Origin: Candidatus Gastranaerophilales bacterium
Lineage (GTDB): Bacteria; Cyanobacteriota; Vampirovibrionia; Gastranaerophilales; Gastranaerophilaceae
Direction of reading: 5' to 3'
Length of the DNA: 32,176 bases
Assembly (NCBI GenBank): GCA_944325655.1
Contig: CALVAW010000022.1
Coordinates: 1-32,176, forward strand
Shown: piece after piece, positions 8,778-12,983 of the stretch
Layout of the letters: each line of letters starts with the position of its first letter
Numbering within the stretch: position 1 is the stretch's first letter
Made by a program: the position numbers and the translations under genes
The notes under the pieces: model-generated
What the model was told of the DNA's origin: nothing
Databases searched by the model: none
What the model saw: only the letters and a program-made list of their open reading frames with translations

Positions 8778-8843
8778 TGTTGTTAACTTTCTTCTGCTTA
8801 ATGTTTTTAAAATTTGTGACAGAAATATTTTACAATAAAAATA

Positions 8844-10547
8844 TTATTCGTTAATAATTTTTACTTTGAAATGGTTTTTGCCTGAAATTTCATTTGAAAA
8901 TTCTTCTAAAAATTTAATAAAACTTTGTGTTTGAGGGTGATTAATGATATTAAATGAAATAACTAAATCGGGGTTTTCTTTAAACAATTTTGTATAATAT
9001 TCTGTTATTTTTCTTGCCGATTGATTTTGACCTCTTATTTCAGCAGGTATATTGTTTCTTTCAAATACTTTTTGTTTTAACAATAATAAATACAAATTTC
9101 TGGATGAAAGTGTAAGAAGTTTGTGCTTTGCAACGTTAACCAGTTCATCTCCGCTTGGAGTTTTGTTATGAGTATACAATTTATCAAGTTTAATTAAATG
9201 TTGTATTTTTATGTGCTCACGAACTGTTTCTGCTTTTTGATAAAACAATGACGGTTGTTTTAGCGCTGTTTCAATGTATATGCCGGGAGATAACCCGTTT
9301 TCTTTGAAGAATTCATCATCGACAACCCCTTTAATATTTTCTTTTACAGTTTTTGCTTTCATACAGAATAATTGTGGTTTACTTAGCGCAGCTTCAATAT
9401 ATTCTTTTTCAGATAGTCCGTTTTTTCTAAAGAACTCATCATCGACAACCCCTTTAATATTTTCTTTTATTGTCTTGGCTTTCAGATAGAATAATTGCGG
9501 TTGTCTTAGTGCGGCTTTGATATATCCTTTCGGTGACAGGCCGTTTTTTCTAAAGAACTCATCATTTATTATGTTGTTAATGTTGCTTTTAATTTTTTCT
9601 GCAGTTAAAGTGAATAAATCAATGTGCTTAAATACGGCTTCAAGATAATTTTCTCTTGTAAGACCGTAATTTTTAAATTCATCAACAACATCATCCACCC
9701 TTTTAATAAGCTCTTTTATGTCTTTATTAACCACTGCGGGTGCATTAATTAATCTATTTTCCACATCTTTTAGGTTTTTATTCGGGTAAAAAGTATTTTT
9801 AAAGTCACATACAAATGTTTTAAATTTGTCGGGTAATTTTCCCATGCTTTGTTGTAATTTTAAAATTCCTCTAATTATTATAGTATATATTGTCATTTGA
9901 CTTTTTTGGTCTTCGTCTGATAAATTTTGATATGTTGCACCTTTTATAAATCTTTTAATAATTATCTTTTTTTCTTCTTCGCTTAAATCGGATTTATCTA
10001 ATAAACCTTGAAATTCTTTTCTTTTTTCTTCTTTTTTTTCTTTGCATGAGTCATGAAAGCAACTTATCAAATTGTTTTCAGTCATCGTGTCGATTACATT
10101 TTTTTTATAATTTCTTGATATTCTTCTATCCAAACTTTCTGCAGACATATCCGTTGTATAATCAGTTGCTTTTAATTTAAAATCATTAAAATTCGCAAGA
10201 ATAAATTCTCTGATTTTATCTTTATCGCTTTCAATATTTAAATATTCCAGTATTTCAAGAATTTTTCTTTGAATTAAATCTTCTCTTGCTAATGTTGAAA
10301 CTTTTAATTCTTTAGCTCTTTTTTGGAGTTCTTCGTATAAAAATAATATTAATTCTTCTTGTGAAGAGTTTAATTTTTCATTTAATTTTTGATTAAAATC
10401 CTTATTTTTAAAAGAAATGCCGCTACTTGCAAAACAATCGGTATTATTAGTTTTAAAACCGTTAAATTCGCCGGTTTTGTTAATTTTATTTATTTTGAAG
10501 TAATTAAATTGTTTAAATGGGGTTTTAAATATCGGATAAATTTTCAT
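8844..10547 (-). CDS. Large helical repeat protein with mTERF-like 41-residue repeats, unknown function
   Basis: This protein of 567 residues is rich in Lys, Asn and Glu, has no signal peptide and no membrane segment. The first ~50 residues are low in complexity and end in SGISFKN, an N-terminal signature I associate with Gastranaerophilales proteins. Residues about 55-240 are helical; 189-230 (LSEEEKKIIIKRFIKGATYQ onward) resemble a sigma-70 region 4 helix-turn-helix, weakly. Residues 295-458 are four tandem 41-residue repeats of the form GLS-x4-YIxAALxxPQLF-xxKAxTVKENIKGVVDDEFF. The P-x-LF pattern after a helix recalls mTERF or TALE-like helical repeats that bind nucleic acid. A mixed C-terminal domain follows. 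The ATG lacks a clear ribosome binding site. The nucleic-acid role is inference. Confidence 0.85.
   Translation of the reverse strand: MKIYPIFKTPFKQFNYFKINKINKTGEFNGFKTNNTDCFASSGISFKNKDFNQKLNEKLNSSQEELILFLYEELQKRAKELKVSTLAREDLIQRKILEILEYLNIESDKDKIREFILANFNDFKLKATDYTTDMSAESLDRRISRNYKKNVIDTMTENNLISCFHDSCKEKKEEKRKEFQGLLDKSDLSEEEKKIIIKRFIKGATYQNLSDEDQKSQMTIYTIIIRGILKLQQSMGKLPDKFKTFVCDFKNTFYPNKNLKDVENRLINAPAVVNKDIKELIKRVDDVVDEFKNYGLTRENYLEAVFKHIDLFTLTAEKIKSNINNIINDEFFRKNGLSPKGYIKAALRQPQLFYLKAKTIKENIKGVVDDEFFRKNGLSEKEYIEAALSKPQLFCMKAKTVKENIKGVVDDEFFKENGLSPGIYIETALKQPSLFYQKAETVREHIKIQHLIKLDKLYTHNKTPSGDELVNVAKHKLLTLSSRNLYLLLLKQKVFERNNIPAEIRGQNQSARKITEYYTKLFKENPDLVISFNIINHPQTQSFIKFLEEFSNEISGKNHFKVKIINE
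9174..9665 (-). repeat. Four in-frame 123-bp tandem repeats inside the helical repeat protein gene
   Basis: Units start at residues 295, 336, 377 and 418, exactly 123 bp apart. The middle units keep near-identical DNA over long stretches: a block around 9313-9345 recurs 123 bp later around 9436-9468. This suggests recent unit duplication or gene conversion. The first and last units are more diverged. Confidence 0.9.
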
Positions 10548-10627
10548 ATATTTTTAAAACCCGTAATGAAATAATATTGTTAAGTAAGTTTTTAAATTAT
10601 TTTAATTATTAATTATATTTAACTTTC

Positions 10628-10656
10628 TTTTTTTTGAATTATTTTTAATGTAGAAT
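10628..10656 (+). promoter_or_regulatory. Weak candidate promoter of glyA
   Basis: TAGAAT (10651-10656), directly preceded by TG, makes a fair -10 box. The -35 region 17 bases upstream is a T-run (10628-10633) with little match to consensus. I saw no glycine riboswitch-like structure in the 141-base gap. Confidence 0.3.
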
Positions 10657-10688: not shown

Positions 10689-11924
10689 ATGGAACTTGAT
10701 GTTATAAAACAAACTGACAGCGAAGTAGCGCATTATATAGAGCTTGAATTAAAAAGACAAAGAGAAACAATTGAGCTTATTGCTTCCGAGAATTTTACTT
10801 CTCCTGCGGTAATGGCAGCTTGCGGAAGCGTATTAACAAATAAATATGCTGAAGGTAAACCCTTTAAAAGGTACTACAACGGTTGTGAATGTGTTGATAA
10901 AATAGAAGAACTTGCTCAAAAAAGGTGTTGCGAGCTTTTTGGATGCGACCATGCCAATGTTCAACCGCATTCGGGTGCTCAAGCTAATATGGCGGTATTC
11001 TTTTATGCACTTAAGACAGGTGATACTATTTTAGGTATGGATTTGTCTAACGGAGGGCATTTGACCCATGGTTCGCCTGTTAATTTTTCAGGCATAAATT
11101 ATAATGCTGTTTCATACGGGGTAAATGAAGATGGTGTTATTGACTATGATGATGTTGAAAAGAAAGCATATGAATTTAAACCCAAAATGATTATTGCAGG
11201 AGCAAGCAATTATTCGAGAATAATTGATTTTGAAAGATTTTCAAATATTGCAAAATCAATAGGGGCTTATTTAATGGTTGATATTGCACATATTGCGGCT
11301 CTGGTTGCTGCGGGTTGTCATCCGAGTCCTGTGCCTTATGCTGATTTTGTAACTACAACAACCCATAAAACTTTAAGAGGGCCAAGAGGCGGTATTATAA
11401 TGTGCAAAAGTGAACATGCTGCAGGAATAGATAAAGCAGTATTTCCCGGCACTCAGGGCGGTCCTTTGGAACATATCATTGCAGGCAAAGCAATTGCTCT
11501 TAAAGAAGCTCAAGGGGAAGAATTTAAAAAATATGCAAGACAAGTGGTTGAGAATTCTAAATGTCTTGCAAATGAACTAATTAAAGAAGGAATTGATATA
11601 GTCGGAGGTAAATCTGAAAATCATGTTATGACTCTTGATTTGAGAAGACTAAATAAGACAGGTAAGGACGTTGCAAATTTATTAGAGGAAGTTGGTATTA
11701 CAGCTAATAAAAATACTGTTCCGAATGATCCCCAAAGTCCTTTTGTTACATCTGGCGTCAGAGTCGGTACCGCAGCTGTAACAACAAGAGGGATGAAAAA
11801 TGATGAGATGAAAGTTATTGCAAAAATTATTGCAGATGCTATTCTTGAAAGAGATGAAATTACAAATTTAAGAAAAAGAAGTTTGGATTTGTGTAAGAAA
11901 TTTCCTCTCTACAGCGAAATATAG
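10689..11924 (+). CDS. glyA: Serine hydroxymethyltransferase
   Basis: This PLP enzyme of 411 residues converts serine and tetrahydrofolate to glycine and methylene-tetrahydrofolate, the main source of one-carbon units. The PLP lysine is K227 in [14 protein letters not shown]. The cofactor-binding aspartate and histidine are in VDIAHIA (D198, H201), and IASENF (31-36) and NKYAEG (51-56) are canonical. The usual YPGKRYYGG stretch reads KPFKRYYNG (57-65), a mild departure near the active-site tyrosines. The ATG follows a near-perfect GGAGGAG at 10678-10684, implying strong translation. A WecA/TagO-type gene starts 12 bases after its stop, so the two probably form one transcript. Confidence 0.97.
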
Positions 11925-11936
11925 GGTTAAGTTAAA

Positions 11937-12983
11937 ATGATTAAATTATCTCAAGCTCATGTATTAGGCACAATAATTGCTTATTTGCTCGGAATTTTCA
12001 TAGTTCCTTTGGTAATTTATTATTCTCAAAAGATGGGTTTAGTTGATGTTCCGAACGAAAGAAAAATTCATCATGGCAAAATTTCAAGGCTTGGCGGAGT
12101 TGCTATATGGATTTCTGTTATGCTTTCGTTTTTATTTTTGATACTTTTAAGTTATTATCCGAAAGGGCAAGGACTTTCCGCTATTATCGTGGGCGGTTCT
12201 TTGATGTTTTTAATGGGTTTAATAGATGATATTTATTGTTTGAATGCAAAATTTAAACTTTTTATTCAGATAGCAATCGCTACGATTGTTATACTTTTGG
12301 GAGTCAGAATAGAAAATTTATTTAATCCATTTGGTAATTGTATTGATTTGGGAGTTTTGTCATATCCTGTTACTTTGCTTTGGATTGTAGGGATTACAAA
12401 TGCTATTAATTTTATTGACGGTATAGATGGTTTAGCGGGTTCTATTGTTAGTATTTCTGCTCTTGCAATAGGTATTGTATCTTTGGTTTTAGAGCCAGAT
12501 ATTCCTATAAATGCATTGATTGCGTTCATTTTAACCGGTGCAATGTGTGCTTTTTTAACTTTTAATTATAATCCGGCTAAAATTTTTATGGGTGATTCCG
12601 GGGCGTTGTATGCCGGCTTTTTGCTTGCTACTTTGTCAATAACCGGAGTAGTTAAACCGAGTCAAGGTGTGTCTATGTATTTGCCTATTGTTATATTGGC
12701 GGTTCCTTTGATGGATGTTGCATATTCTTCAATTAGAAGAATGCTAAAAGGCACAAGCCCTTTTGTAGCCGATTCCGAACATATTCATCATAAGCTTTTA
12801 CATGCAGGTTATTCTCAAGATAAGCTTGTTATGCTTCTTGCCGGATTTTCTATGGTCTGCGCACTTTTGTCCATAATTGTTGTCAGTACAAGGAGCAAGT
12901 TTATAATAATTGCGCTAAGCTTAATAGGCGTTTTGATTGTTTTAAATATCATTTCAAAATTAATTAAGAAAAAAGAAAATTAA
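11937..12983 (+). CDS. Undecaprenyl-phosphate N-acetylglucosamine (or related sugar) 1-phosphate transferase, WecA/TagO type
   Basis: This is a polytopic inner-membrane enzyme of 348 residues with about ten or eleven segments. It transfers a HexNAc 1-phosphate from its UDP form to undecaprenyl phosphate and so starts O-antigen, enterobacterial common antigen or teichoic-acid-like glycans. Hallmarks are RKIHHGKISRLGGVA (42-56), the magnesium-binding DD at 97-98, NFIDGIDGLAG (158-168), FMGDSGA (217-223) and the HIHHKL loop (282-287) that separates the WecA group from MraY. It follows glyA by 12 bases. Its stop overlaps the stop of the convergent 57-residue gene by three bases. The exact sugar cannot be read from sequence. 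Confidence 0.93.
   Translation: MIKLSQAHVLGTIIAYLLGIFIVPLVIYYSQKMGLVDVPNERKIHHGKISRLGGVAIWISVMLSFLFLILLSYYPKGQGLSAIIVGGSLMFLMGLIDDIYCLNAKFKLFIQIAIATIVILLGVRIENLFNPFGNCIDLGVLSYPVTLLWIVGITNAINFIDGIDGLAGSIVSISALAIGIVSLVLEPDIPINALIAFILTGAMCAFLTFNYNPAKIFMGDSGALYAGFLLATLSITGVVKPSQGVSMYLPIVILAVPLMDVAYSSIRRMLKGTSPFVADSEHIHHKLLHAGYSQDKLVMLLAGFSMVCALLSIIVVSTRSKFIIIALSLIGVLIVLNIISKLIKKKEN

Follow-up and report, generated by a model that had tools for sequence, protein, structure and literature searches.

mTERF proteins are generally regarded as eukaryotic organelle factors with an unclear origin, and their repeats are of the DNA-binding kind used by eukaryotes to control mitochondrial transcription. In MTERF1 the central helix of the repeat is capped by the conserved proline, which forms the S-loop next to the DNA, and Arg350 (R350) reads a guanine (PMC4705650). 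DNA-binding prokaryotic proteins with mTERF-like repeats, termed pTERF, have been reported from rumen MAGs (Hu et al., 2024, Nucleic Acids Res.; PMC11417379). Most of the pTERF members were placed in Bacillota, pTERF1 binds DNA with nM affinity, sequence-specific dsDNA binding was described for pTERF1 and pTERF2, and the conserved proline/leucine features of mTERF were said to be absent from pTERF1 (PMC11417379).

The window, meaning the whole stretch of DNA that was analysed (32,176 nucleotides), corresponds to positions 1-32,176 of contig CALVAW010000022.1 of Candidatus Gastranaerophilales bacterium (GCA_944325655.1), a gut-dwelling relative of the cyanobacteria, numbered from its first letter. 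It contains, on the minus strand at 8844..10547, an ORF for a 567-aa protein that combines a leader, a sigma-70-like N-terminus, mTERF-like repeats and a C-terminal domain; the gene is present once in its genome. The repeat array comprises four tandem units, each of 41 aa (123 bp), at 9174-9665 of the minus strand (residues 295-458) and amounts to approximately 30% of the protein, further parts being the N-terminal 237 residues and the conserved C-terminal domain. These coordinates and the exact period of the four units, already proposed in a first-pass annotation of this DNA, were confirmed by unit mapping, by Tandem Repeats Finder as an independent method (period 123, 2.3 copies) and by autocorrelation. 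At a lag of 41 residues 69 matches were counted in 123 positions, whereas none of 2000 shuffles exceeded 24, a periodicity far above chance. The annotation had missed a degenerate fifth unit that precedes the other four (residues 256-294; 9666..9782, minus strand), which was detected with a repeat scoring matrix (score 20), has helices in the model and shows a period of 39 to the next unit.

Taking the conserved proline of a unit as position 0, the residues at -1, +1 and +4 form a triad that differs along the array. Unit 1 (residues 295-335; 9543..9665, minus strand) has the triad H308/D310/T313 with Ile309 in place of the proline, unit 2 (residues 336-376; 9420..9542, minus strand) has Q349/Q351/Y354 with Pro350, unit 3 (residues 377-417; 9297..9419, minus strand) has K390/Q392/C395 with Pro391 and unit 4 (residues 418-458; 9174..9296, minus strand) has Q431/S433/Y436 with Pro432. 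The full GLS-x4-YIxAAL..PQLF..DDEFF pattern, which had been attributed to all four units, holds for units 2 and 3 only; unit 1 (GLTRENYLEAVFKHIDLF) is devoid of the proline and unit 4 has PSLF followed by a divergent tail (KIQHLIKLDKLY). To call the DNA of the middle units near-identical was also too strong, units 2 and 3 being 80.5% identical in DNA and 75.6% in protein; all other unit pairs share 42-61% identity, and the units other than 2 and 3 are older. Downstream of the array, the C-terminal domain (residues 459-567; 8847..9173, minus strand) is modelled as helices followed by a strand-helix-strand, and its family HMM, applied to 42 Gastranaerophilales repeat proteins, matches 38 of them (E 6e-8 to 4e-31).

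The repeats are mTERF-like, a conclusion supported by a Pfam match, by the comparison of a family profile with the PDB and by the predicted fold. PF02536 (mTERF) reached 29.1 bits in the window protein, versus a curated cut-off of 23.1, and is above the cut-off in most relatives (35-77 bits, down to E=1e-21). When a profile of 14 family members was compared with all PDB sequences, human MTERF1 crystal chains were retrieved at E 6e-6 to 1.6e-4 and MTERF3 weakly, the best match being the Tetrahymena mitoribosomal protein mS93. Structure prediction and comparison, which the first-pass annotation had proposed as a check, yielded a confident solenoid whose best PDB matches were all mTERF proteins: in an AlphaFold model built from 34 relatives the repeats have a pLDDT of 95-98, the units consist of three helices with a conserved capping proline according to the model and its fold matches, and Foldseek ranks 1-14 were occupied by mTERF proteins or mTERF-type mitoribosome chains (ranks 1-13 by MTERF1/3/4, with a probability of 1.00). 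MTERF4 and algal mitoribosome chains were among the fold matches and MTERF1 had the highest fold scores, with a VIA-align Z of 14.1 over 272 aligned residues; a Z of about 14 may arise by chance for helical repeats and, for this reason, the evidence from sequence is of value as a separate line of support. The mTERF-like solenoid anticipated from the 41-residue units was in this way upheld. The TALE-like alternative offered along with it found no such support: TALE is absent from the reported Pfam and PDB matches and from the fold-match rows listed, absence from such a list being no proof. The likeness to TALE and TALE-like repeats is confined to the principle of tandem helical copies that are near-identical and vary chiefly at a few positions, whereas the window unit is three-helical and carries the mTERF proline. 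Pfam matched no catalytic domain in the window protein, and an enzyme role was dropped for this reason.

Compared with the eukaryotic mTERF family (MTERF1, MTERF3; PF02536), the window family shares the Pfam match, the proline-capped three-helix units and the solenoid fold, but its units are tandem, often near-identical and of nearly one fixed period per protein, and they occur on a bacterial chromosome in fusion with a sigma-like part. The family was set beside pTERF1 and pTERF2 by published description; on this basis the origin in bacterial gut MAGs, the tandem three-helix mTERF-like units and a proposed reprogrammability are common to both, with 3-11 units in pTERF (PMC11417379) and five (one degenerate) in the window protein. 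In contrast to pTERF1, the proline occupies position 0 in 85% of the 326 units collected across the window family, and a sigma-like domain, present in the window protein, is not reported for pTERF, the term sigma being absent from the published description (PMC11417379).

This sigma-70-like N-terminus, detected by PF04545, profiles, hhalign and TIGR02937, had been overlooked when the protein was first described as one of unknown function. Its best preserved portion is the region 4 helix-turn-helix (residues 168-237; 9837..10046, minus strand), assigned by PF04545 (24.6 bits versus a cut-off of 24.1 in the window protein, 28.2 bits in relative L004) and by structural superposition on region 4 of SigD, SigF and Taq SigA (Z 8.5-9.4, rmsd 1.5-2.5 A). 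The linker (residues 125-167; 10047..10175, minus strand), with a near-invariant Ser138 (SLD..I), can be aligned to the linker preceding sigma region 4, and hhalign aligned linker plus region 4 with sigma factors encoded by the window's genome (probability 97.2, E 2.8e-11). The preceding helical domain (residues 49-124; 10176..10403, minus strand), which includes Gln93 (EDLIQ), is region-2-like as judged from TIGR02937, the hhalign register and a fold search. TIGR02937, the NCBI ECF sigma model, aligned residues 64-234 with model positions 4-164 of 165 at E 2.6e-4, the score of 20.7 bits being below the curated cut-off of 42.9, as is that of relative L076, which has 10 repeat units (36.4 bits, E 3.8e-9). 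In addition, residues 52-237 of the model superimposed on SigB with a Z of 9.6, and SigA chains in the PDB were matched by two family profiles.

Taken alone, region 2 gave weaker results: PF04542 (region 2) had no match in the window protein at E up to 1, nor among the own-genome hits, hhalign returned a probability of 20%, and the best rows for the domain modelled by itself, SigC and sigma-E region 2 (Z 6.8), were tied with SRP N domains (Z 6.6-6.8). Gln93, which falls where region 2.2 has its core-binding motif, is near-invariant in 21 sigma-containing members, and a region 2.3 melting motif was not seen upon inspection of the hhalign alignment. Because region 2 is weak alone and the melting motif was not seen, the N-terminus is termed sigma-derived rather than a sigma factor, with a region 4 above the Pfam cut-off and a diverged, colinear region 2. 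Thus, the protein resembles sigma-70 factors (ECF/SigB-type) in its region 4, linker and colinear region 2, and departs from them in the missing PF04542 match and 2.3 motif, the score below the curated ECF cut-off and the addition of a large repeat domain.

The profile search for homologues, also suggested in the first-pass annotation, was carried out across the order and gave matches in 46 of the 286 genomes. Forty-five of these belong to the family of the window and contain relatives; the match in the 46th genome, outside the family, was discarded as an ordinary sigma factor. Within the phylum, PF02536 occurred in 19/386 genomes, all in the window's family, and in 0/14 control genomes. The gene is an accessory one with a patchy distribution within a single family of Candidatus Gastranaerophilales. 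When 84,980 species were scanned with a profile of close relatives, repeat arrays were detected in MAGs labelled Alphaproteobacteria and a few others, up to 64% identical and, wherever the N-terminus was present, without the sigma-like part, bearing in mind that taxonomic labels of MAGs may be wrong, as for one called Aenigmatarchaeota. In the latter (L128, record JAHLMR010000014.1, labelled Aenigmatarchaeota archaeon) near-identical mTERF-like units were observed, and mis-binning is possible. IMG/VR scans with two alignments and tblastn of phage and plasmid collections found no relative, and a viral origin was rejected on these grounds.

Across the family, the 326 units belong to 50 proteins with 2-12 units each and nearly one period per protein (36, 39, 40, 41 or 45 residues). 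Both sigma regions are present in 24 of the 42 Gastranaerophilales repeat proteins examined, 23 of which also carry the C-terminal domain. The other 18, three of them cut by contig ends, are without one or both sigma regions, and therefore members of the family can do without the sigma part; region 4 without region 2 was found in a single member, whose sequence is cut off where its contig ends. In G138, an open frame of 23,026 aa was dismissed as an artefact of masked N runs, and so were Pfam matches in relatives (NikA-like, RuvA_C, PAH_ZNF598 and others), for which no stretch passes alone, as chance scores summed over repeats. Clustering of the neighbourhoods of 38 loci revealed just synteny between close genomes and no conserved partner gene, an idea that was rejected. 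Individual neighbours deserve mention. A tandem neighbour of two family members (L075:10911-12692) keeps the C-terminal domain and has repeated helix-turn-helix-like segments (KORA match) in place of the mTERF units, which are absent. Directly downstream of another member lies L095:1463-5923, whose 1487-aa product joins the sigma-region-2-like N-terminus of the family (E 2e-27) to an HD phosphohydrolase domain. A further member is flanked on both sides by paralogues of about 660 aa with CPxCG motifs (L079:6901-8889 and 10813-12780), one of which matches HNH endonuclease.

In four sister-species records (L150, L152, L153 and L154), whose typA is 97% identical to that of the window, typA and glyA are divergent neighbours separated by 148-169 bp. 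The corresponding gap in the window measures 1.9 kb and its sole gene is the 567-aa one; comparison of the gaps places the DNA absent from the sister species at 8842..10620 (no strand assigned), with breakpoints resolved roughly. The gene is inserted as an accessory gene, and no transposase was seen at the insertion. It begins with a disordered leader ending in ISFK (residues 1-48; 10404..10547, minus strand; pLDDT ~40), the DNA of which matches at 72-73% over 110-140 bp the leader DNA of other genes that probably occupy this site in another sister species, G218. There, a contig starting in the typA-glyA gap bears a leader of this type, and another small contig encodes an orthologue, likewise with four units of period 41, whose identity is 61% over the repeats and 54% over the C-terminus; we infer that the two contigs join. 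At this probable typA-glyA site (L151:1-400; L097:1420-4007; window 10390-10640) G218 has several tandem genes that have in common about 170 bp of upstream DNA and the leader codons, followed by unrelated bodies, namely an mTERF-type gene, a 760-aa protein without Pfam domain and a third one running off the contig, an arrangement suggestive of cassettes being swapped behind an unchanged 5' end. In other sister species (L158:7976-10141, L160, L165:7905-9297) the gap is occupied by other accessory genes, several with a similar N-terminal 'SF..' leader and some with HExxHA motifs (HEFQHA, HELEHA) and no Pfam match. A [ST]F.[GAS]-like motif occurs in the first 65 residues of 128 of 727 ORFs (L061-L097, L150-L167) versus 64 in shuffled N-termini, a count inflated by glyA orthologues and by the window family, and a lineage-specific N-terminal signal is possible.

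Regarding how such arrays might select their sites, the variable starts of the units (TREN/SPKG/SEKE/SPGI), suggested in the first-pass annotation, are not the best candidates, as replacements between the closest pairs concentrate at -1, +1 and +4. In the 17 closest within-protein unit pairs, defined by at most 12 base differences, 22/57 replacements (39%) fell at these positions vs 8% expected if uniform, an excess measured under the assumption of equal freedom of all positions and not against equally exposed ones; just 2/33 silent changes of the same pairs fell there. The excess holds at looser cut-offs. Position +1 aligns with F243 and R350 of MTERF1 in the profile alignment, and between the window protein and its same-locus orthologue in G218 the +4 residues of units 2-4 (Y/C/Y) are kept, though they differ between units. 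These sequence patterns support, short of showing it, a role of the residues at -1, +1 and +4 in base reading.

Altogether, the window protein is probably an RNA-polymerase-associated, sequence-specific DNA-binding transcription regulator made of two modules. Binding to DNA is likely, and contact with the polymerase, considered on its own and suggested by the conserved Gln93, stands at about an even chance. In the mechanism proposed, the C-terminal half would form an mTERF-type solenoid wrapping double-stranded DNA and would choose its site through the residues at -1, +1 and +4, next to the proline that caps the helix in every unit. The N-terminal half would descend from a sigma-70 (ECF/SigB-like) factor; it may have kept region 4 together with the part of region 2 that binds the core (2.2 Gln) and lost the promoter-melting part, so that it would dock on RNA polymerase or retain just the region-4 DNA contact. 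The polymerase could then be brought to, or held at, the DNA sites picked by the repeat array, with activation or a roadblock as the outcome. A bolder version, in which the protein is a naturally modular sigma-derived specificity factor whose sigma-70 remnant tethers RNA polymerase to solenoid-chosen sites, with a three-residue code per repeat and with unit duplication diversifying the arrays in gut Gastranaerophilales, is put forward tentatively, as something we would sooner doubt than assume.

The two-module regulator has to be weighed against a stand-alone pTERF-like repressor or roadblock, in which the sigma part would be a second DNA-binding helix-turn-helix making no contact with the polymerase. 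Region 4 is indeed the best-kept sigma part, region 2 is eroded and without the 2.3 motif, many family members are without the sigma part, and MTERF1 itself has been described as a roadblock (PMC4705650). Nevertheless, the region 2.2 Gln93 would hardly be expected to be near-invariant in 21 sigma-containing members under this reading, nor regions 2 and 4 to be lost together instead of region 2 alone, and we consider it rather unlikely. As the mTERF family includes RNA and ribosome binders (mS93, MTERF4), the ligand could also be RNA, with a post-transcriptional role like that of the mitoribosome or splicing members; mS93 is the best PDB sequence match, and MTERF4 and algal mitoribosome chains appear among the fold matches. 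Such a role is improbable in view of the fusion to a sigma-like module, which points to transcription, of the top fold scores obtained for the dsDNA binder MTERF1 and of the dsDNA binding of the published prokaryotic relatives (PMC11417379). Finally, an accessory, repeat-rich protein with a disordered leader might be an exported effector acting in another cell by TALE-like logic, and the insertion of a single gene of a patchy family, as well as leader DNA common to a gene with an unrelated body, would fit this idea; a bacterial sigma-like module, however, would be useful only with a bacterial RNA polymerase, and the search of the window's genome for a VirB4-type secretion ATPase found none, which leaves export as a very improbable explanation.

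A literature search of open-access reports retrieved no account of mTERF from this lineage and none of sigma fused to mTERF. DNA-binding prokaryotic mTERF-like repeats have been known since 2024; as far as could be found, the sigma fusion, the distribution and the triad are new. A repeat of this type joined to a sigma-like module provides a tie to bacterial transcription and a function that is testable. If the triad reads DNA, the family would offer many natural arrays, with periods of 36-45 residues and as many as 12 units, from which an mTERF recognition code could be deduced, and its presence in these bacteria bears on the origin of mTERF repeats.
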